NCBI GenBank assembly: GCA_027619995.1
Contig: JAQCGR010000008.1
Coordinates: 1-33,286, forward strand
Direction: 5' to 3'
DNA: 33,286 nt
Origin: Pseudomonadota bacterium
GTDB lineage: Bacteria; Pseudomonadota; Alphaproteobacteria; CADEGL01
Part shown: positions 2 through 33,171 of the stretch, piece by piece
Layout of the letters: every line of letters begins with the position of its first letter
How positions within the stretch are numbered: position 1 is the first letter of the stretch
Notes under the pieces: generated by a model
Databases searched by the model: none
The model's input: only the letters and a program-made list of their open reading frames with translations
What the model was told of the DNA's origin: nothing
Made by a program: the position numbers and the translations under genes

Positions 2-568
2 CGGGCCTACCGCGCCGGCCTGCCGCCCGCCGGGGCGGGTGCGGCCTGGGCGGTCGACAAGACCCCGCTCAATCTGCTCCATCTGCCCTGGGCGGCGCGG
101 ATGCTGCCGGAGGCGCGCTTCCTGTGGATGCGGCGCGACGCGCGCGACACCGGCCTGTCCTGCTTTTTCCAAGGCGCCGGAGACGGCCACGGCTTCGCCT
201 TCGACCTTGCCCATTGCGGCCATTTCCAGGGCCTTGTCGCGCGCCTGCACCGGGCCTGGGGCGCGGATCTGGGCGACCGGCTGCTGACCGTCGAATACGA
301 GGATCTGGTGACGGGATTCACGGGCACGGCCCGGCGCGCCCTGGATCATCTCGGCCTGGGATCGGATGAAGCGGTCTCGCGTTTTCACGATAGCGGCCCG
401 GCGGCATCGGCGGCGACGCCGTCACCCTCCGCCCGTCGCCCCGGCCGCCGGCTGCTCTCCACCGCCTCAATCGGCCGCTGGCGTCGCTATGCGCGCCATC
501 TCGGCCCGCTCACCGCCGCTCTGGCAGAATCCGGCCTGCGCTTGCCCGCCCCCCGCCCGGCGGCGTAG
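2..568 (+). CDS. Sulfotransferase family protein, C-terminal part (5' truncated)
   Basis: This is an open frame entering from the left edge and ending at TAG 566-568, giving about 188 residues. Sulfotransferases move a sulfuryl group from PAPS to a hydroxyl or amino acceptor. The stretch VDKTPLNLLHLPWAARMLPEARFLWMRRDARDT, seen here in pieces (VDKTPLNLLHL, then PEARFLWMRRDARDTGLSCF), matches the mid-to-C-terminal part of the family, with the PAPS 3'-phosphate-binding Arg-Asp region. LTVEYEDLV follows, as is usual there. The N-terminal PAPS P-loop lies outside the window. The acceptor cannot be told. The family is fairly sure from these motifs; a TPR-sulfotransferase fusion is possible because the N-terminus is missing. 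The stop codon lies inside the first few bases of the downstream tandem duplication. Confidence 0.8.
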   Translation, partial: RAYRAGLPPAGAGAAWAVDKTPLNLLHLPWAARMLPEARFLWMRRDARDTGLSCFFQGAGDGHGFAFDLAHCGHFQGLVARLHRAWGADLGDRLLTVEYEDLVTGFTGTARRALDHLGLGSDEAVSRFHDSGPAASAATPSPSARRPGRRLLSTASIGRWRRYARHLGPLTAALAESGLRLPAPRPAA

Positions 569-581
569 CTTCCCCGGGCCT

Positions 582-668
582 GCCCGCTTGGCGGAACTGG
601 TAGACGCAAGGGACTTAAAATCCCTTGGCCCTCGGGCCGTCCGGGTTCGAGTCCCGGAGCGGGCACCA
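582..668 (+). tRNA. tRNA-Leu (anticodon TAA)
   Basis: This is a class II tRNA of 87 nt with encoded CCA. The acceptor stem is GCCCGCT (582-588) with AGCGGGC (658-664), discriminator A665, then CCA 666-668. The anticodon stem is AGGGA/TCCCT (609-613, 621-625) around the loop CTTAAAA, with T615 as U33 and anticodon TAA at 616-618. The long variable arm has GGCCC pairing with GGGCC, and the T arm is CCGGG-TTCGAGT-CCCGG. All stems pair perfectly. It reads UUA and probably UUG. A decayed copy lies 764 bp downstream. Confidence 0.96.
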
Positions 669-709
669 CCTCTCTTCGGTCGAGACTCAGGTCGGCTTTC
701 CGGCCGTGC

Positions 710-730
710 GGCGGGCCGCCCCGGCCCGCC
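710..730. terminator. GC-rich hairpin between tRNA-Leu and the convergent gene
   Basis: GGCGGGCC (710-717) and GGCCCGCC (723-730) form a perfect 8-bp stem with a 5-nt loop. It lies between the tRNA-Leu and the convergent stop codon at 733, where a bidirectional terminator would be expected. No T-run follows, so an intrinsic terminator is only possible, not shown. Confidence 0.35.
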
Positions 731-732
731 CG

Positions 733-1251
733 CTAGAACTGCTCTTTCGGCAACGCCTCGCCCGCGTTGTCCTCGACCGCGGGGACCTTGCGCGAGGTGT
801 AATGCACGCCGGGATGGCCGTTCTCGGCGCGGAGTTCGATATCGGTGGTCTCGGTGCGCCAGAAATCGGTGCTCCGGTCCTCCCGCGCCTTGGGATATTT
901 CTCCTCCAGGGTGGCTCTCAGCCGGGTGTCGAACTCGTAGATCTGATCGAAGGGTACGTCGGTGAAATTGTAGTAGCTGGCGAAAAGCCGGCCCCGGTTG
1001 TTGAACTCGTAATAGAGCCGGCAGGGCCGGCCGTCGATCGAGCATTCATAGACCAGGCTCATCTGGCTTTCGGGATTCTTGGAGTGCCGTTCGATGAACT
1101 GGTTGGGTTCGGCCGCCCGGACCTCGTCATCGGTCATGCCCCAGCGCACGGACCGAAAATCGGCCTCCTGGGCCCGGCTCACCGATGCGTCCGCCCAGGC
1201 GAACAGGACACAAGCGAACAGCATGCAGGCTTGGAGCAGGGTGCGGGGCAT
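733..1251 (-). CDS. Exported protein of unknown function, paralogue A
   Basis: This 172-residue protein has a signal-peptide-like N-terminus (MPRTLLQACMLFACVLFAW, cleavage probably near residue 27), so it is probably periplasmic. I do not recognise a named family. The mature part opens with FRSVRWGMTDDEVRAAEP, a pattern seen at the start of several small periplasmic domains. It has two cysteines in YECSIDGRPC that could form a disulfide. The ATG at 1251 was chosen over an upstream ATG at 1323 because GGAGG lies about 8 nt before it, the signal peptide starts there, and paralogue B has exactly the same length. Its convergent neighbour is the intact tRNA-Leu. Roughly 70% of mature residues match paralogue B by eye. 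No function is proposed. Confidence 0.82.
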   Translation of the reverse strand: MPRTLLQACMLFACVLFAWADASVSRAQEADFRSVRWGMTDDEVRAAEPNQFIERHSKNPESQMSLVYECSIDGRPCRLYYEFNNRGRLFASYYNFTDVPFDQIYEFDTRLRATLEEKYPKAREDRSTDFWRTETTDIELRAENGHPGVHYTSRKVPAVEDNAGEALPKEQF

Positions 1252-1345
1252 CTCGAAACCTCCATCGGGCCGGGTGCGAAACCTATCCCACGGCTGTCCC
1301 GGCCGGGCCAACCATCGGCACAATGATCGTAGCTTCCCGGGGCCT

Positions 1346-1432
1346 GCCCGCTTGGCGGAACTGATAGACGCAAGGGGCCTAAAATTCCTCGGCTCTCGGG
1401 CCGTCCGGGTTCGAGTCCCTGAGCGGGCCCCA
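1346..1432 (+). pseudogene. Decayed tRNA-Leu(TAA) copy
   Basis: This is an 87-nt copy of the tRNA-Leu at 582 with the same acceptor stem (1346-1352 with 1422-1428), but several key positions have changed. The D-loop GG is now GA. The invariant U33 is C, so the anticodon loop reads CCTAAAA. The anticodon stem has two G-T pairs, the T stem has a C-T mismatch, and the discriminator A73, the main leucine identity base, is C1429. The anticodon triplet TAA is kept. A tRNA finder may still score it. I infer a pseudogene; it could be transcribed but is unlikely to be charged normally. Confidence 0.72.
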
Positions 1433-1493
1433 ACCTGCCTCGGTCGCTCGCCGGGACTTCGTACCAGGCCTGTGCGAGTTGTCCTGCTGCCCG

Positions 1494-2012
1494 CTAGAAC
1501 TGGTCTTTGGGCAAGGGCTCGCCTGCGCCGTCTTCGACCGCGGGCACGGTGCGCGAGGCGTAGTACACGCCGGGATGGCCCTTGCTGGAGCGGAGTTCGA
1601 TATCGGTGGTCTTGGTGCGCCAGAAATCCGATCTCCGATTCTCCCGCGCCTTGGGATATTTCTCGTCCAGGGTCGCTCTCAACCGCCTGTCAAAGTCGTA
1701 GATCTGTTCGAAGGGAACTTCGATGAAACTATAGTAGCTGGCGTAGACACGGCCCCGATTGTTGAACTCGCAGAACAGTCGGCAGGGCTGCTCGCCGATC
1801 ATGCATTCATAGACCAGGCTCATCTGGTCGCTGGAAGGTTTGAGAATCGATTCGAAGAAGTGGCTCGGCTCCGCCGCCCGCACTTCTTCAATCGTCATGC
1901 CCCAGCGAACGGACCGGAAATCGAAATCCTGAGCGAAGGCCGCCAGCGTGCCCGTCTGGCCGAGCAGAACGGCAACGATCACGACGCAGGCGCGGGACAA
2001 CTTGCGGGGCAT
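1494..2012 (-). CDS. Exported protein of unknown function, paralogue B
   Basis: This is a second 172-residue member of the pair, with signal peptide MPRKLSRACVVIVAVLLGQT and cleavage likely near AFAQ. It keeps FRSVRWGM, YEC...PCRL, EFNNRGR, ASYY, LRATL.EKYPKARE, DFWRT.TTDIEL, GHPGV.Y and VPAVED of paralogue A. Divergence is concentrated in the signal peptide and around residues 45-60. The ATG at 2012 gives the same length as paralogue A; the longer frame from 2171 would prepend unrelated sequence. The reading frame is intact while the linked tRNA copy has decayed, so selection seems to have kept the protein and not the tRNA. Function unknown. Confidence 0.82.
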   Translation of the reverse strand: MPRKLSRACVVIVAVLLGQTGTLAAFAQDFDFRSVRWGMTIEEVRAAEPSHFFESILKPSSDQMSLVYECMIGEQPCRLFCEFNNRGRVYASYYSFIEVPFEQIYDFDRRLRATLDEKYPKARENRRSDFWRTKTTDIELRSSKGHPGVYYASRTVPAVEDGAGEPLPKDQF

Positions 2013-2097
2013 CTCGAACTTCCGATCAGGCTTGGTACGAAAGCTAACCCAAAATGGCCTTGAAAGAACCGAATATCGGCATGAACTTCTGCACGCC

Positions 2098-2484
2098 CTA
2101 GAGAACCTTCTGGCAGACGACCATGACGACAAGGGCGACGATCCAGTATCCGGCATCGACGTTCCTGGCATAAGCCGTCTTCTTCGTGAACATGCCGCCC
2201 GAATAGGCGAGCGCGGTAAAGGCGATGGTCGCGAGAATCGCGGTCGGCAGCGCGTTGGCTGCCGCGGCCACGCCGACGAACCAACTCATCAGGAGCAGCC
2301 CGACAAGCAGGGCAACCATGGCGCCCACGGGCATACCGCTCGCCGAACCCAAGCTGACACCCACGCCTTCCGCCCATTTCGTGCCGAACAGTTTCGGCGA
2401 ATACCAAAGCCATCCCACCAGAAACGACAGGACGGCCCCGGTGATGACGCCGAGCCAGCCTACGCCTGCGACGAGTTCATTCAT
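2098..2484 (-). CDS. DUF1761 family small membrane protein
   Basis: This 128-residue protein has about four hydrophobic segments: residues 6-26, 49-66, 71-90 and 108-126. The N-terminal NELVAGVGWLGVITGAVLSF, then GWLWYSPKLFG and W, fits DUF1761, an inner-membrane family with no established role. The start at 2484 is preceded by AGGAAGG about 10 nt upstream; the longer frame to 2580 would run back into the preceding acyl-CoA ligase region. It is transcribed in the same direction as the ligase upstream, with about 56 bp between them, so it could be the last gene of that operon. Family assignment is from motif memory. Confidence 0.75.
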   Translation of the reverse strand: MNELVAGVGWLGVITGAVLSFLVGWLWYSPKLFGTKWAEGVGVSLGSASGMPVGAMVALLVGLLLMSWFVGVAAAANALPTAILATIAFTALAYSGGMFTKKTAYARNVDAGYWIVALVVMVVCQKVL

Positions 2485-2540: not shown

Positions 2541-4160
2541 CTAGACCTTCCGCCCGGTTTCCGCAGCCGCTTTGGCCCATTCGCGATCGCGGAGCGCGCG
2601 GCGCATGATCTTGCCGACCGGGCTCAGGGGCAGGGACTCGGCGAACTCGTAGCGGCGGGGCTTCTTGTAGCCGGCCAGGTGTTCACGGCAGAGGGCGGTC
2701 AGTTCGGCCTCCAGTGCCGGGCCGGGGGTGGCGCCGGGCTTCGGCACGATGAAGGCCTTCACCGCCTCGCCCCATTCCTCGTCCGGCACGCCGACCACGG
2801 CGGCCTGGGCCACGGCGGGATGGCTGTAGAGCGCGTCCTCGACCTCCTTGGGCCAGACGTTGAAGCCGCCGGTGATGATGATGTCCTTCTTGCGGTCGAC
2901 GATATAGAGGAAGCCCTCGTCGTCGCGCCGCGCCATGTCGCCGGTGAAGTACCAGCCGTCGCGCAGCGCCGCCGCGGTCTCCTCCTCCAGGCGCCAATAG
3001 CCTTCCATGTTGTTCTCCGAGCGCACGACAATCTCGCCCACCTCGCCCTCGGCCACCGGCTCGCCGTCGTCGTCGAGCAGGCGGATCTCCATCGTCGCCA
3101 CCGCCCGCCCGCAGGAGGCCAGCCGGTTGCCCGCCGGGCCGTCGCGGTCGATATGCTCGTGGGCGCGCAGGATGGTCGTGATCACCGGCGCCTCGCTCGA
3201 GGTATAGACCTGGGTGAAGATCGGGCCGTAGCGCGCCATTGCCGCGCGCAGCACGGGCACCGGCATGGGCGCCGAGGCATACATGAACATGCGCAGGCTG
3301 GAGACGTCGGCGGTGCCGTCGTCCTCGCGCAACAGGCGCTGCACCATGGTCGGCACCATGTAGGTATAGGTCACCTTGTGGCGCTCGATCGCGTCGAGCA
3401 CGGCGCGCGCGTCGAACCGCTCATGCGGAATCTGGGTCGCCCCCGTGGCCCAAGCCGCGCCCCACATGAAGTTGAGGCCGTGGGACAGATGGCCGAGATG
3501 CAGGATCGTGTCGCCCGCCGCGAAGGCGAATTCGCGGATCACGTCCAGATTGGCGGCGCGGAAGGCCCGGTGGGTATGGACGATGCCCTTGGGCCGGCCC
3601 GTCGTGCCGCCCGTATAGCGGATCAGGACCGGAGCCTCGTCGCCATAGCGATGGGGCGCTTCGCCGTCGCCGGTCCCGCGCACGGCTTCGTCATAGCTGG
3701 CGCAGCCCGGCCGCTCGCCGCCCACCACGAAGATCGCCTCCAGGTCCGGCAGTTCGTCGCGTCGGGCCAGCACGGCATCGGCATAGCGCGATTCGCAGAC
3801 CAGGATGCGCGGCGCGCAGTCGATCAGGGCGTAGAGCACCTCCGCCTCGGCGAAGCGGATGTTGAGCGGCACCTTGACCAACCCGCATTGCAGGGCGGCC
3901 AGTTCGGTCACGATGAAGGGAATGCCGTTGGGCAGGATATGGGCCAGCCGGTCGCCCGGCCGCGCGCCCGCCGCACGGTAGGCCGCGGCCAGTCCCCGCG
4001 CCATCGCGGCCGTCTCGGCGAAAGTGACCGAGCGGTCCTCGGCGTCGATCAGGGCCGTCTTGCCGGGGTGGTTGGCGACCGCCTGATCCAGCAGGTGGTT
4101 GATATCCACGCCGGCGCGGCCAGGTGCGGGCGCAGGCGCGGCTTTCGCTTCTCTCGTCAC
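2541..4160 (-). CDS. AMP-binding acyl-CoA synthetase / ligase
   Basis: This 539-residue member of the ANL superfamily should activate a carboxylic acid to its CoA thioester through an acyl-adenylate in the cytoplasm. The A3 loop is IRYTGGTTGRPKG at about 180-192. The motif YFTGDMARRDDEGFLYIVDR with KDIIITGGFNVWPKEVE follows at about 407-445, and the catalytic lysine of the C-terminal lid is in SPVGKIMRR (K517). Length is normal for the family. Its ATG overlaps the TGA of the upstream enoyl-CoA hydratase (ATGA), so the two are translationally coupled. Substrate cannot be read from sequence; the setting suggests a medium-chain, aromatic or branched acid. Confidence 0.92.
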   Translation of the reverse strand: MTREAKAAPAPAPGRAGVDINHLLDQAVANHPGKTALIDAEDRSVTFAETAAMARGLAAAYRAAGARPGDRLAHILPNGIPFIVTELAALQCGLVKVPLNIRFAEAEVLYALIDCAPRILVCESRYADAVLARRDELPDLEAIFVVGGERPGCASYDEAVRGTGDGEAPHRYGDEAPVLIRYTGGTTGRPKGIVHTHRAFRAANLDVIREFAFAAGDTILHLGHLSHGLNFMWGAAWATGATQIPHERFDARAVLDAIERHKVTYTYMVPTMVQRLLREDDGTADVSSLRMFMYASAPMPVPVLRAAMARYGPIFTQVYTSSEAPVITTILRAHEHIDRDGPAGNRLASCGRAVATMEIRLLDDDGEPVAEGEVGEIVVRSENNMEGYWRLEEETAAALRDGWYFTGDMARRDDEGFLYIVDRKKDIIITGGFNVWPKEVEDALYSHPAVAQAAVVGVPDEEWGEAVKAFIVPKPGATPGPALEAELTALCREHLAGYKKPRRYEFAESLPLSPVGKIMRRALRDREWAKAAAETGRKV

Positions 4161-11286: not shown

Positions 11287-12606
11287 CTACATCGAGACGA
11301 GGGCCCTCGGCAGATAGGTCGCCAGCCAGGGCAGCGCGAGCACGAGAAGCAGGACGACGACCTGACAGGCAACGAAGGGGGCGACCCCCAGATACATGTC
11401 CTTGTAGGTGATCTGCGGCGGCGCGATCGAGCGCAGATAGAAAATCGACGGCGCCATCGGCGGAGTCAGATAGGAAGTCTGGATCACGATCATCATCAGC
11501 ACGGCGAACCAGACGGGTTCGACGCCGTGGCCGGCCAGGGCGGGCAGGAAGATCGGCAGGCAGATCAGGACGATCGAAACCCAGTCCAGGATGAAGCCGA
11601 GCAGGAAGACGATGAACAGGCAGATTGCGATCGTGCCGCTCGGGCCCAGTTCGAGATAGTTGAGCGTGTCGTCGACCAGCCGATGGCCGCCATGGACCCG
11701 GAAGATGTTGGAGAACATCGTGCCCGCGGTGACGATCATCATGATCATGCTGTTGACGACCAGGGTCGAGCGCAGCGTCTGGGTCATCATCTTGAAATTG
11801 AGCTTGCCGTAGAGGCCCGCGAGGATGAAGACGCCGACGGCGCCGACGGAGGCCGCCTCGGTCGGCGAGGCCACGCCCAGCATGATCGAGCCAAGGACCG
11901 CCACGATCAGTGCGGTGGCGGGCACGAGCGCGGTAAAAGTGACGACCACCTTCTCCCAGAACGGTACGTCGGCGACCTCGGCCGCCGCGGGCCCGTCATC
12001 GGGCCGCAACAGGCAGCGCAGGACGATATAGCCAAGGAACAGGGCAACCATGATACCGGCGGGAATCAGCATGGCCGCGAAAAGCTGTCCCACGCTCATC
12101 TGCGCGACGGATGCGTAGATCACGACCACGAGGGAGGGCGGGATCATCGTGCCGAGCGAGCCGCCGGCGCAGATCGTTCCGGCGATCAGGTCGCGATCGT
12201 AGTTGTAGGTCATCATGGCGGGGATCGCCATCAGGCCGATAACAACTTCGACCGCGCCTACGATGCCGGTCGAGGCGGCGAAGATCGCGCCCATGATCAT
12301 GGTCGCCAGGGCGAGGCCGCCGTTCAGCTTGCCGAGCCAGAGTTGCAGCGCCTGGAACAGCCGTTCGGCGATGCCCGAGCGTTCGAGCATCGCGCCCATG
12401 AAGATGAAGGGCGGCACGGCCGACAGCAGATACTGCGTCGCGACCTGAAGGACGGTGTTGTAGAGCTGGATGCCGACGATCTCGCCGAACACCGGCAGCC
12501 CGAAGAAGAAGGCGATGCCGAACAGGGCAAAGGAAATCGGTATCCCGAGGAAAACCAGCAGAAACAGCGCCGGGAACATCAGGGAGGCGAGCAGTTCACC
12601 CGACAT
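11287..12606 (-). CDS. dctM: TRAP transporter large permease, DctM family
   Basis: This 439-residue inner-membrane protein has about 12 hydrophobic segments and is the sodium-coupled transport subunit of a TRAP system. Typical features are the N-terminal FPALFLLVFLGIPISFAL, GIAERLFQALQLWLG, FAASTGIVGAVEVVIGLMAIPAM and GTICAGGSLGTMIPPSLVVVIYA. The C-terminal TSYLTPPMAPSIFYL is also typical. The start MSGELLASLMF at 12606 is preferred to 12663 because the longer frame adds polar sequence and overlaps the small permease more. It overlaps the dctQ stop by about 11 bp. It exports nothing itself and needs the DctP protein for substrate delivery. Confidence 0.93.
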   Translation of the reverse strand: MSGELLASLMFPALFLLVFLGIPISFALFGIAFFFGLPVFGEIVGIQLYNTVLQVATQYLLSAVPPFIFMGAMLERSGIAERLFQALQLWLGKLNGGLALATMIMGAIFAASTGIVGAVEVVIGLMAIPAMMTYNYDRDLIAGTICAGGSLGTMIPPSLVVVIYASVAQMSVGQLFAAMLIPAGIMVALFLGYIVLRCLLRPDDGPAAAEVADVPFWEKVVVTFTALVPATALIVAVLGSIMLGVASPTEAASVGAVGVFILAGLYGKLNFKMMTQTLRSTLVVNSMIMMIVTAGTMFSNIFRVHGGHRLVDDTLNYLELGPSGTIAICLFIVFLLGFILDWVSIVLICLPIFLPALAGHGVEPVWFAVLMMIVIQTSYLTPPMAPSIFYLRSIAPPQITYKDMYLGVAPFVACQVVVLLLVLALPWLATYLPRALVSM

Positions 12607-13162
12607 CGAGGGAGTGCTCCTTGTCCTTGACGCTCGGTCCCGGGACCGCGTCGGGATCGACAATGCCGATGACGTGTCTCACGGCCTCGGCCGCGGATTG
12701 GACCAACAGGCCGAACAGCCCGATGGTGATGCCGGTATAGAAGGGCCAGATCAGCGGTTCCCAGGCACTCATCGTTTCGATGCGGCCCAGGTCGTAGGCC
12801 GAGATGGCGCGCGTCACGCCAAGCCAGGTGATGAGGCCGAAGCCGGGCAGCAGGACGCCGAGATAGAAGATCAGATTGATGAAATGCTGCAGGCGAAGCG
12901 GCAGCATCTGAGATAGAAAATCGATTCGCACATGGCCGTTCATGCGCAGCGTGAAGCCCGCGCCGATCACGAACAACGAACCGTTCAGCATATAGGTGAT
13001 GTCATTGGCCCAGACCGTCGGGTCGTTGAAACCCTTGCGGCGGATGACCTCCTGCATGGTGACCACGATCATCACCACGATCATCGCCATCGCGCCATAG
13101 GCAAGCCAGCGGCTGAACGAATCAATCGCCGGCAGGATGCGGTTGAGCAGGGTATTTTTCAC
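12596..13162 (-). CDS. dctQ: TRAP transporter small permease, DctQ family
   Basis: This 188-residue membrane protein has four hydrophobic segments and is the small subunit that binds the DctM permease. The segment MIVVMIVVTMQEVIRRKGF with WANDITYMLNGSLFVIGAGF and NGHVRIDFLS is characteristic of DctQ. It overlaps the start of dctM and lies 86 bp after dctP, as in many TRAP operons where the binding protein comes first. The C-terminal tail after residue 165 is hydrophilic and probably cytoplasmic. No unusual feature. Confidence 0.92.
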   Translation of the reverse strand: MKNTLLNRILPAIDSFSRWLAYGAMAMIVVMIVVTMQEVIRRKGFNDPTVWANDITYMLNGSLFVIGAGFTLRMNGHVRIDFLSQMLPLRLQHFINLIFYLGVLLPGFGLITWLGVTRAISAYDLGRIETMSAWEPLIWPFYTGITIGLFGLLVQSAAEAVRHVIGIVDPDAVPGPSVKDKEHSLDVG

Positions 13163-13183
13163 AAGTACACCATCCGCCGGATG

Positions 13184-13232
13184 GCGGACCTCATCGCTTG
13201 ATGCGGTCCGCTCCGACGACTCAAATGAGTCG
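13184..13232 (-). promoter_or_regulatory. Two stem-loops between dctP and dctQ
   Basis: The 86-bp gap holds two hairpins. One is GCGGACC (13184-13190) with GGTCCGC (13205-13211), enclosing a further CATC/GATG stem and a GCTT loop. The other is CGACTC-AAAT-GAGTCG (13217-13232). No T-run follows. Such structures between the binding protein and permease genes of transport operons usually lower downstream expression or protect the upstream mRNA end; here that is inference. Confidence 0.5.
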
Positions 13233-13248
13233 AGTAACGCCGTTCGCG

Positions 13249-14322
13249 CTACCGGATGTTGTCGGTGTGGTCGACCACCATGTAGCCCGAATGGGCACGC
13301 CAGAAATCCTGGAACTCGGTGATGGACTTGAACGCCCGCTCGGCAAAGTCGTTGCCCTCGGCCTTGGAGGCCGCGGCGGCTTTCACGCCCCAGGCCCGGG
13401 CCGCTACGCGCGACTTTTCCTTGAACTCCTCGTCCAGGGCGACGAACTCGTTGTCGCCCTTGAACTCGGCGAGCGTCTTCATGTCCTTGAGCTGGATGCG
13501 GGCCATGGTTTCCCAGGTCGTCAGCTTGGCCGCGATCTCGATCTTCTGGCGGATATCCTCCGGCAGGGCGTCCCAGCGATCCTTCTGCATGATCAGCTCG
13601 AAGCCCCAGGCCGGCGCGTGGATGCCGGGATAGATGATGTAGGGCGCAACCTCGGGTAAGCCGAGCGCGAAGTTCTGGCTGGGCATGGAGTATTCGGCCA
13701 GATCGAGCTGCTTCTTCTCGAGCGCGCCGTAGACCTCGCCGCCGGGGAAGACGGTCGGCGACGCGCCGAAGGCTTCCTCGACGACCGCGGCCCAGTTGCC
13801 CAGGGTACGGTATTTGAGGTTCTTGAGGTCCTCGACCTTCGTGATCTTCACGTGGGAATGGGCGAAGATTTCGGACGGGCCGACGCCCAGTGGGATCGAA
13901 TGCAGGTTCATCGTCTCGCGGCGATGCTCGGTCAGCAGCTCTCCGCCGCCGCCGAAATAGACCCAGGGGATGAGCGAATCGGTGCCCAGGCCCGTCGGGA
14001 AGGCCAGGGCCATCGCGTTGTACGGATCCTTGGTGCCGAGGAAGAGCGGTGTCGAAATGCCGGCATCCGCGACGCCGTCCTGAACGGCCTCGAAGATCTT
14101 GAAGATCGGCGACAGGACGCCGCCGTCGAAGATCTCGAACTTGACCTTGCCGTCGGTCAGAACCTCGACATATTTCGCGAACGGAAGCGCGAGATCTTCG
14201 TTATAGACCTCGGTCAACGGTGCGATCGTGGCCGTCTTGAAAACATATTCCTGCGCATCGGCTGCCGAAGCGGCAAATGCGAACACCGAGGCGGCAGCGG
14301 CCGCCTTAATAACCTTTTTCAA
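13249..14322 (-). CDS. dctP: TRAP transporter substrate-binding protein, DctP family (TTG start)
   Basis: This 357-residue periplasmic receptor has signal peptide MKKVIKAAAAASVFAFAAS, cleaved probably before QEYVF. The mature part has the DctP pattern, including KNLKYRTLGNWAAVVEEAFG, whose arginine usually binds the substrate carboxylate. GEVYGALEKKQLDLAEYSMP follows. Translation begins at TTG 14320-14322: no ATG is available, and GGAGGAG lies 6 nt upstream, which decides the start. It is the first gene of an operon with dctQ, dctM, the M29-like gene and the alpha/beta hydrolase, so the ligand is likely an organic acid degraded by those enzymes. The control region upstream contains direct repeats. 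Confidence 0.92.
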   Translation of the reverse strand: MKKVIKAAAAASVFAFAASAADAQEYVFKTATIAPLTEVYNEDLALPFAKYVEVLTDGKVKFEIFDGGVLSPIFKIFEAVQDGVADAGISTPLFLGTKDPYNAMALAFPTGLGTDSLIPWVYFGGGGELLTEHRRETMNLHSIPLGVGPSEIFAHSHVKITKVEDLKNLKYRTLGNWAAVVEEAFGASPTVFPGGEVYGALEKKQLDLAEYSMPSQNFALGLPEVAPYIIYPGIHAPAWGFELIMQKDRWDALPEDIRQKIEIAAKLTTWETMARIQLKDMKTLAEFKGDNEFVALDEEFKEKSRVAARAWGVKAAAASKAEGNDFAERAFKSITEFQDFWRAHSGYMVVDHTDNIR

Positions 14323-18139: not shown

Positions 18140-18412
18140 TCAGAGTCGGTCGGTGGTCAGGGGGCGGGGCGCATTGCGGCTGCCCCAGAAACCCCAGCGG
18201 TCGGCGCCGCCGCGGTCGCCAGGGCCGGCGATGGCATTGCCGCGCTGGCCGCGCGCCTCGCCCGGCAGGTCCCCGAGATCGATGGCGTAGCCGCGTGCCC
18301 GGGCAAAGGCCACCAGACCTTCGGCGGTCTCGCCCGCTATGCCGGCATTCCGCTCCAGGGCCGCGTCGCCCTTCGCGTCGGCGATGAAACGCGCCAGTTC
18401 CTTCCGACTCAT
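18140..18412 (-). CDS. Nif11-like small protein, possible leader-type peptide
   Basis: This 90-residue protein splits into two parts. Residues 1-50 (MSRKELARFIADAKGD, then ALERNAG, GLVAFARARGYAIDLGDL) fit the Nif11 domain, known both as a short domain of unknown role and as the leader of some RiPP precursors. Residues 51-90 are glycine- and arginine-rich with RWGFWGSR and no cysteine. GAGGAGG lies 6 nt before ATG 18412, overlapping the stop region of the RidA gene only 10 bp upstream, so the two genes are co-transcribed. No RiPP-modifying enzyme is in the window. A plain Nif11-domain protein of unknown role is the safer call. Confidence 0.68.
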   Translation of the reverse strand: MSRKELARFIADAKGDAALERNAGIAGETAEGLVAFARARGYAIDLGDLPGEARGQRGNAIAGPGDRGGADRWGFWGSRNAPRPLTTDRL

Positions 18413-18422
18413 CCGGACCTCC

Positions 18423-18914
18423 TCATTCAGTGTCGTCGCGCAATCCGAACTCGACCCAGGTCTCGAAGCAGAGATTGCGGACCAGGGACTGCACGCCGAT
18501 CGTGGCCCGGCAACCATAGCCCGCTTCCGGGCCGAAAACATCGGCCAAAAGGTCGGTCATGCCGTCGGCGACTTGCTGGACGTCATAGAAATCCTCGGCG
18601 GCGACGACGAAGTTGAGGCTGCGGATCAGGCACTCGACCCGGTCCAGGTTGCCGAGTGCCGCGCGCACTCCGGCCAGAACATTGAGGCCGGCGATGCGCG
18701 CCGCCTCGCGCCCCTGCTCGAGGGTCACATCGCGGCCAAGGCGGCCCGGATGGACGACTTCGCCGCGTCGGACCGGCGCATGGCCTTCGAGATAGAGTAC
18801 GCCGCGGTGGATCCGCCAGGGCCGGATCCAGGTATCTCGCGTCCCGACATAGCTGCCCTGCGAGAAATCTGGAATCTCAAGGCCCAGGTCCCGCGCCCGT
18901 CTTTCCGCGCTCAT
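18423..18914 (-). CDS. RidA (YjgF/YER057c/UK114) family protein
   Basis: This 163-residue protein has the RidA fold pattern: YLEGHAPVRRGEVVHPGRLG, then GREAARIAGLNVLAGVRAALG, and the C-terminal GYGCRATIGVQSL, whose arginine sits where RidA proteins bind the carboxylate of reactive enamine/imine intermediates. It could deaminate 2-aminoacrylate-like compounds. It is somewhat longer than classic RidA (about 130), as in the YjgF_endoribonc subgroup. AGGAGGGG precedes the ATG. It is coupled to the Nif11-like gene and divergent from the TPR gene (123-bp gap). Confidence 0.88.
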   Translation of the reverse strand: MSAERRARDLGLEIPDFSQGSYVGTRDTWIRPWRIHRGVLYLEGHAPVRRGEVVHPGRLGRDVTLEQGREAARIAGLNVLAGVRAALGNLDRVECLIRSLNFVVAAEDFYDVQQVADGMTDLLADVFGPEAGYGCRATIGVQSLVRNLCFETWVEFGLRDDTE

Positions 18915-30846: not shown

Positions 30847-33171
30847 CTAGGGCGCAACCGGGCGCAGCACGGTTTCATGGGGGAAGGCGGCGCGCACGGT
30901 TTCCGGGCGCAGGGGCAGTTGGACATAGTCGCCGCGCCGCCAGAGCTCGGCCTGGTCCATGAAAGCGGGGCTGCCGATCCGGCCGTCCTGGCCGCCCAGC
31001 AGGGCGAACCAATTGGCATCGGGATCGGCCATATCCGAGACATGGCGCGACTGGGAACCGAAGGCGGTGTCGTGCTTCTCCTTCGCCGCCCTGTGCGAGG
31101 TCTTCATCAGGGTCTGCTTGCCGCCGCCCACGGGCCATTCGGCGAAACGATATTTCCCGCCGATAACCGGCAGATTGGCGAGGGGATGGGTCAGGGCCAT
31201 GCGATGCATTTCGCCCCAGCTGCCGTGTTCGGCAACGGCCTCGCCGGCGGTCTCCAAAGCCTCGGCCAGCGGGCCGGCGATCTTGCCGGCATCGGCCTCC
31301 GCGATGCGGGTCGCGAGCAGGCTGTAGCCCTTGGCATCCACGGCGAAGAGGGCGGCGTCGGCCGGGCCATGCGCGGCTTCACCGAAGGCATCGACGAAAA
31401 CCTCGAAGGCCAGGGCGCCGGCGGAATCCGCCTCATGCGCACCGTCCCAGCCGGCCAGGGCGTCGAGGGCCTTGCGTTGGTGGGGCGTGGCGTCGCCATT
31501 GATGCCGATGGCATTTGCCTTGGCGGTAATGGCGTCGCGCAGGGGCGCGGCCGAGGGCATGGTGACGTCGCGCTGGAAGCTTTCCAGATGGGCGAGGTCG
31601 ATCCGGCCGTTGGCGCGCACCAGTTCCGCCATGCGCCCGACCCGGTCATCGGGCGAGAAGAAATAGCCGACGGGGAAAGCCGTCTCGACCGGCCGGTTGT
31701 TGGCCGAGGCGAGGAAGCCCGCGGCCGGGTTGTAGCTGGCCGGCAGCTGGGTCGCATCGGCGAAGCCGCGCCACAGGTTTCGCTCCTCGCGCGGGTCGAG
31801 CACCAACCCGTCGGGCGTCTTGTAGTCGCGGATCGGCAGGCGCACGGCCATGACCTGGCCGATATTCCCGTCGGTATCGGCGTAGAGCATGTTCTGGGCC
31901 GAGACGGCGAAACTCTCGAAGGCTGCCCGGAACTCGTCCCAGTTCCGGGCCCGGTTGACCCGCAACATGGCGGTGACCTCGTCCGTCGCCTCATGCCCGA
32001 CCCAGCGCAGAGCGAAGGGTGGGCCGTCCGCCACGCCCAGGGGCGGCGCATCGGAGATGATCGGGCCATAGGGCGTTTCGCGGATTGTGACCTCCTCGTC
32101 GAACCACCAGCGGACCTTGATCATCTCCCGGCGTTCGGTGATCTCGGCCGGGTCCAGGGCGGAGACGTCGTAAAGATCGCTCGACGCGGCGCGCATATTC
32201 GTGCCGCCCCAGGCGATGTTTTCGTTCCGCCCGAGGGCGATGAAGGGCACGCCCGGAATCATCATCCCGACCGCGTGATAACTGGGTGATTTGATCCCCG
32301 CGAGCAGCCAGAGATTGGGCAGGTAGATGCCGAGATGGGGGTCGTTCGCGATCATCGCCCCGCCCGATTCGCTGCGGGCGCCGGAGATGACGAGGGAATT
32401 GCTGCCCGCCTTGGTATGGCCCAGCAGCAGATCGGACAGCAGGGCCAGATTGGCGTTGTTCTCGAAACTGGGCAGGGAATCGGTGGCGCCCTCGATCAGC
32501 CCGGCCCAGATCTCGGGCCAGTCCTCGCGCTGGATCAGGGGCAGCAGGCGGAACCACATGATCCAGTTGACGTCGGTCGAGCCGAGACGGCCGATGGTCA
32601 GCACGTCCTCGATCGTCCAGGGCTCCCGCGCCAACCCCAGCACGCGGTATTCGTGGGGCGGTTCGGTCATGACCCGCTGGTAGTGTTTTATCCCGTCGAC
32701 GAAGCCCTGAAGCCAATCGCGCGTCTCGGCCGGCAGTGCCGCCGCGCTGCGCTCGGCCCCGCGCCGGTAATTGAGAATGCGCAGCCCGTGGTCGATCTCG
32801 GTGGCCAGGGGCCCGGCCATCTCGGAGAGCCGGCCATCGGCGATCCGGCGCATCATCTCCATCTGGCCCAGGCGCAAATGGGCATGGACGACCCCCAGGG
32901 CGACGGCCAGGTCACGGTCGCTTTCGGCTTCGATGAAGGGCACGAGATGGTCGTCCCAGCGAATCGTGACCGGCTGCGCGACCGGCATATCCGCGGTCGG
33001 CAGGGCGGCAAGCCGCTGCTCTATGCTGGTCTCTTCGGGCAGAGGGGCGAGCAGGGCGCAGCCGGCGGCGAACGGCGCGATCAGCACGGCGGCAAATCCG
33101 CGCCTCGCTTTCGAGCGGCGGCGCGCCGCGCGTCGCGTCCGGCTGGCCCAGGTCGCAATCTGGCGAATCAT
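30847..33171 (-). CDS. Penicillin acylase family protein (Ntn hydrolase), probable lipoprotein
   Basis: This 774-residue Ntn-hydrolase precursor of the penicillin G acylase / acyl-homoserine-lactone acylase family should be processed into alpha and beta chains. The beta chain would begin at S257 of AGSNSLVISG, the autocleavage nucleophile, followed by the family's GGAMIANDPHLG. The alpha region has WDDHLVPFIEAESDRDLAVALG. A lipobox FAAGC with C38 follows an Arg-rich N-terminus and a short hydrophobic stretch, so it is likely anchored in the envelope. AGGTGG lies upstream of ATG 33171. The natural amide substrate is unknown; beta-lactam or acyl-homoserine-lactone hydrolysis are both possible. 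Confidence 0.92.
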   Translation of the reverse strand: MIRQIATWASRTRRAARRRSKARRGFAAVLIAPFAAGCALLAPLPEETSIEQRLAALPTADMPVAQPVTIRWDDHLVPFIEAESDRDLAVALGVVHAHLRLGQMEMMRRIADGRLSEMAGPLATEIDHGLRILNYRRGAERSAAALPAETRDWLQGFVDGIKHYQRVMTEPPHEYRVLGLAREPWTIEDVLTIGRLGSTDVNWIMWFRLLPLIQREDWPEIWAGLIEGATDSLPSFENNANLALLSDLLLGHTKAGSNSLVISGARSESGGAMIANDPHLGIYLPNLWLLAGIKSPSYHAVGMMIPGVPFIALGRNENIAWGGTNMRAASSDLYDVSALDPAEITERREMIKVRWWFDEEVTIRETPYGPIISDAPPLGVADGPPFALRWVGHEATDEVTAMLRVNRARNWDEFRAAFESFAVSAQNMLYADTDGNIGQVMAVRLPIRDYKTPDGLVLDPREERNLWRGFADATQLPASYNPAAGFLASANNRPVETAFPVGYFFSPDDRVGRMAELVRANGRIDLAHLESFQRDVTMPSAAPLRDAITAKANAIGINGDATPHQRKALDALAGWDGAHEADSAGALAFEVFVDAFGEAAHGPADAALFAVDAKGYSLLATRIAEADAGKIAGPLAEALETAGEAVAEHGSWGEMHRMALTHPLANLPVIGGKYRFAEWPVGGGKQTLMKTSHRAAKEKHDTAFGSQSRHVSDMADPDANWFALLGGQDGRIGSPAFMDQAELWRRGDYVQLPLRPETVRAAFPHETVLRPVAP

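Follow-up and report, generated by a model that had tools for sequence, protein, structure and literature searches.

Tandem duplication of a tRNA-Leu(UAA) gene and an exported-protein gene at a putative tRNA-linked site of gene turnover

The duplicated units and their neighbours

The window (the whole 33,286-nt stretch of DNA that was analysed) opens with the end of a sulfotransferase gene, followed by two adjacent units of about 760 bp, a DUF1761 gene and an acyl-CoA ligase-type gene. The features of the locus are as follows.

2..568, plus strand: sulfotransferase gene, 3′ part (Pfam PF13469, E=2.7e-20; 3′ end conserved in the sister genome G001)
564..1327, no strand: duplication unit 1 (repeat families D1/D2 and unit alignment)
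582..668, plus strand: tRNA1, intact tRNA-Leu(UAA) (ARAGORN; Rfam tRNA, 58.4 bits)
669..732, no strand: spacer separating the convergent tRNA1 and P1, with a strong hairpin (−36 kcal/mol, z=-2.7 by RNA folding)
733..1251, minus strand: P1, 172 aa, with an N-terminal signal peptide (translation; signal-peptide-like N-terminus read from the sequence)
1328..2090, no strand: duplication unit 2, right end approximate (2082-2090) (repeat families D1/D2 and unit alignment)
1346..1432, plus strand: tRNA2, tRNA-Leu pseudogene (Rfam tRNA, 32.2 bits; 8 substitutions)
1494..2012, minus strand: P2, paralogue of P1, 172 aa (65 % identical to P1)
2098..2484, minus strand: DUF1761 membrane protein gene (PF08570, E=2.2e-11), upstream of P2 on the same strand and a member of the island described below
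2541..4160, minus strand: acyl-CoA ligase-type (AMP-binding) gene, right border of the island (91 % identity to G001:C206:1794-3401)

Both units pair a sequence derived from tRNA-Leu(UAA) with a 172-residue gene convergent to it. Two pairs of direct repeats, 564-682/1328-1446 (88 % identity) and 728-1027/1489-1788 (84 % identity), link the units, and global alignment revealed homology extending beyond the tRNAs: the units are identical at 17/18 positions in the 5′ flank of the tRNA, at 79/87 in the tRNA itself and at 396/516 nt in the ORF, the last with zero gaps. The region 5′ of the ORF is also conserved (48/75, far above shuffled controls), while the tRNA-to-ORF spacer (35/61) does not rise above shuffled sequence. 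Homology begins at 564, two bases ahead of the sulfotransferase stop codon (566-568), which therefore falls within the start of unit 1, and its right limit lies a few bases short of the 1327/1328 junction. Such head-to-tail, co-linear homology with shared ends is that of a tandem segmental duplication. Unit 2 also retains the host-specific stop of the sulfotransferase and tRNA leader as a fossil (CGTAGCTTCC), which is nearer to the sequence of unit 1 (17/18) than to that of the sister species. The first-pass annotation had described a head-to-tail pair of units starting within the stop of the preceding gene, and both points are borne out by the repeats and the alignment; its coordinates and anatomy stand, apart from the end of unit 2, which we place at about 2082-2090.

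Two other origins were rejected: an assembly artefact in view of the difference of 9-40 % between the copies, and separate duplications of the tRNA and of the ORF because homology 5′ of the ORF reaches the junction.

Elsewhere, the window encodes a full-length penicillin amidase family protein (30847-33171; PF01804, E=9.6e-162) and a small protein with a Nif11 domain (18140-18541, E=1.2e-6), a domain that is frequent in leader peptides of natural products.

Fates of the tRNA and protein copies

tRNA1 is 100 % identical over 87 bases to a gene in the sister genome (G001:C206) and, the degenerate tRNA2 aside, is the only full match to its sequence in its own genome. tRNA2 differs from it by eight substitutions: G19A, U33C, A73C, two changes that convert anticodon-stem pairs to G-U, two transitions (one before and one within the variable arm) and one that breaks a T-stem pair. 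Loss of U33 and of the discriminator A73 had been proposed from the first reading and is confirmed, as is damage to the D-loop GG, although only one of its two Gs is lost. A genome-wide tRNA search returned 32 matches over the cut-off (51.6-76.7 bits), and tRNA2 is absent from this list; its 32.2 bits come from separate scoring and lie above Rfam's cut-off. The low score predicted for a decaying copy was thus obtained (32.2 bits vs 58.4 for tRNA1 and at least 51.6 for the other tRNAs listed in the genome), and the loss of conserved positions together with this outlying covariance score marks tRNA2 as a tRNA pseudogene. Single-strand folding points the same way, with z-scores of −2.86 for tRNA1 and −0.97 for tRNA2, the latter no better than shuffles.

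The hairpin at 669..732 is terminator-like but lacks a T run, and folding of the sequence 3′ of tRNA2 revealed no counterpart. A sigma-70 promoter scan found no promoter, and the two terminator-like sites on the plus strand both lie within ORFs. ARAGORN labels tRNA2 (1346-1432) as ‘tRNA-Phe(aaa)’, which is an artefact of the degraded anticodon loop; automatic annotation would insert a false tRNA-Phe here. A weak tRNA-like match (21.6 bits) elsewhere in the same genome, about 100 bases downstream of an intact tRNA (contig C416, 14229-14284), is possibly another tRNA remnant.

The protein genes have met a different fate from tRNA2. P1 and P2 are 65 % identical without indels, both ORFs are intact and both N-termini are signal-peptide-like; on reading the sequence, GGAGG precedes the ATG of P1. 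Both proteins are kept under weak but real purifying selection, since dN/dS for the entire gene is 0.55 (bootstrap 0.35-0.86) and the observed changes are improbable under neutrality: of 5000 neutral simulations with the observed P1/P2 changes, 5 % remained stop-free, and the 60 amino-acid changes observed equal the minimum of the simulated values (mean 76). The mature part gave a dN/dS of 0.44 (0.28-0.93) and the signal peptides 1.3, showing no constraint. The proposal that selection had kept the protein copies is therefore upheld by the intact frames and the dN/dS, though the constraint is weak.

P1 and P2 belong to a nearly orphan family. They matched no family in Pfam and no solved chain in a sequence search of the PDB, and NCBIfam returned weak, irrelevant matches only. 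A scan of a genome-contig collection with P2 alone found nothing; a P1/P2 profile recovered four distant relatives from the same collection, alike mainly in the N-terminal DFRSVRWGM region. This motif, or a near form of it, occurs in distant relatives from Desulfoluna, a Chitinispirillaceae MAG and a Verrucomicrobia MAG, and the relatives thus come mostly from unrelated phyla. Samples of the class (385 genomes) and of the phylum (398) yielded no strong match, and viral contigs, plasmids and phages yielded no match. The predicted model, of low confidence (pLDDT 64), shows an alpha-beta3 pattern twice. A fold search with it gave no significant match; a BLIP-like protein ranked second (E=0.04, TM 0.21), a weak, non-significant resemblance that makes a BLIP/BamE-like fold a lead only.

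A tRNA-linked interval with different cargo in the sister genome

In G001, which is the only congeneric genome compared and is 87 % complete but has a contig that spans the interval, the same sulfotransferase end, tRNA and CoA-ligase gene flank an unrelated segment of about 1.8 kb that includes a gene for a trypsin-type protease. The encoded protein (L043:3575-5161, minus strand; 528 aa) combines a trypsin-like domain with a hydrophobic, membrane-like segment and a weak FHA-like match at its N-terminus. Between the two genomes, homology breaks off at one border with the 3′ end of the tRNA and at the other close to the ligase stop; G001 has a single copy of the tRNA, and the P gene is wholly absent. 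Neither P1/P2 and the DUF1761 gene nor, in its turn, the G001 protease occurs in any of the four other genomes of the order (five compared), and the duplication unit was found in no third genome. In the family members G002-G004, tRNA-Leu(UAA) has different neighbours.

The island's G+C content of 61.7 % lies below the mean of the contig's windows (66.8 %), a difference that is only supportive because the TRAP-transporter region near 12 kb is just as poor in G+C; in and near that other low-G+C stretch, at 11287-14322, are genes whose products have the TRAP-transporter domains DctM and DctP. Since the sister genome has other cargo, the island proteins were unseen in four genomes and G+C is low, the duplication is placed by these comparisons in a small lineage-specific island at what would be a gene-turnover spot. 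Different cargo between the same flanking genes was seen in one comparison only (G000, the genome of the window, vs G001). The products taken as genes in the island are P1, P2 and the DUF1761 protein, none of which matches an integrase, and the locus looks like a gene-turnover spot beside a tRNA without a recognised mobility gene.

Origin of the duplication

We consider it probable that the units arose by tandem duplication of about 760 bp in situ, after which the redundant tRNA2 decayed and both exported-protein copies were kept. At the start, a small island comprising a P gene and the DUF1761 gene would have lain between the tRNA-Leu(UAA) gene and the CoA-ligase gene. Illegitimate or short-homology recombination may then have duplicated the stretch from the upstream sulfotransferase stop codon through the tRNA and the P gene in the chromosome. 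The second tRNA would have had just 18 nt of upstream region at birth, so that it was probably promoterless; as copy 1 already supplied tRNA-Leu(UAA), copy 2 would have been redundant and free to decay. The frames of P1 and P2 would have remained open, with weak purifying selection acting as they diverged; presumably both proteins are made, and possibly they are subfunctionalised.

P1 and P2 differ at 15/55 fourfold sites (27 %), and the neighbouring ligase differs between the species at 54/295 (18 %), a contrast that is not significant (P=0.14). Judged by these divergences, the duplication would thus roughly match the species split in age or somewhat predate it, unless P genes evolve fast. 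The tRNA leaders oppose the older date, as those of the two units (1 difference in 18) are closer to each other than either is to that of the sister species.

The main rival to duplication in situ is import of a diverged allele: one unit would have come, already diverged, by homologous recombination from a relative with the same sulfotransferase-tRNA-P order. This would suit the fourfold-site divergence of P1 and P2, which is at least that of the neighbours between species (27 % vs 18 %, not significant at P=0.14), and the clear difference in cargo between lineages. The tRNA leaders of units 1 and 2, however, are nearly identical while that of the sister species differs, and a search of the order, viral contigs, plasmids and phages brought up no donor; we regard such an import as unlikely.

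One set of figures fits uneasily with free decay of tRNA2 from the start. tRNA2 (8/87) and its 5′ flank (1/18) are less diverged than the fourfold sites or the region upstream of P (27/75). Had tRNA2 drifted since its birth with tRNA1 unchanged, it should have gathered 13 to 18 changes; it shows eight (posterior-predictive P 0.13 by the fourfold sites, 0.014 by the 5′ region and 0.03 combined). This slower change relative to nearby neutral sites suggests late decay or earlier gene conversion by tRNA1, and tRNA2 may not have decayed freely from birth; delayed decay or conversion from tRNA1 to tRNA2 is accordingly an addition made to the duplication model for this purpose. The claim that only the protein copy survives hence holds in that tRNA2 is damaged and both ORFs are open, and is softened by the weak selection (about 0.55) and the slower-than-neutral change of tRNA2.

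The same slowness (P about 0.03) could mean that tRNA2 is still in use, as a modified tRNA, a tRNA-like RNA or a processing signal near P1, and it is true that three stem substitutions preserve pairing via G-U and that the score exceeds Rfam's cut-off. U33, A73, G19 and a T-stem pair are nevertheless lost, the fold is weak (z=-0.97 vs −2.86 for tRNA1) and the downstream hairpin is gone too, which makes continued use highly improbable. Retention in some new function, such as that of a tRNA-like RNA signal serving the island, would account for the slower-than-neutral change and is a shade more doubtful still. Least probable of all is site-specific integration, in which the second tRNA is an attachment-site repeat left by an element integrated into tRNA-Leu: tRNA genes are common attachment sites from which partial tRNA copies arise pervasively (PMC9897764), and homology between G000 and G001 does end at the tRNA 3′ end, but the repeat takes in the whole tRNA, 18 nt upstream and the complete downstream gene rather than a 3′ part only, and the island has no recognised integrase product.

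Comparison with known systems

The earlier interpretation was largely right but incomplete, and is partly supported. Tandem duplication in situ, our preferred reading, makes the locus a clear small case of one event with contrasting fates, in which the redundant tRNA decayed and both protein copies stayed; the tRNA-Leu(UAA) locus also holds unrelated cargo between the same flanking genes in two congeneric genomes, without a recognised integrase. The wider lesson is a modest one. The suggestion that such a duplication is unusual at a tRNA locus does not hold, given that tRNA-carrying duplications are documented (PMC7661048) and that the interval beside the tRNA has been swapped between species, so that gene turnover here is expected; the event is of an ordinary, known kind at a spot where genes come and go.

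Three known systems are comparable. Prokaryotes commonly carry extra tRNA copies with low scores (PMC9897764), and the attR-type partial copies among them likewise lie near an intact tRNA with foreign-looking genes beside; the copy here differs in being full length with its 5′ flank included. Integrase-free hotspots of gene turnover (Oliveira et al. 2017, PMC5635113) share the conserved flanks, unrelated cargo in related genomes and lack of a recognised mobility gene, although with two genomes compared, hotspot status is only suggested here. Finally, the tandem duplications known from experiment at Pseudomonas fluorescens serTGA add tRNA gene copies (PMC7661048) and are likewise chromosomal tandem events giving a second tRNA gene copy plus neighbours; they span 45-290 kb, are young and were selected for the tRNA, whereas the present one is 0.76 kb and old, and its tRNA copy has been lost.
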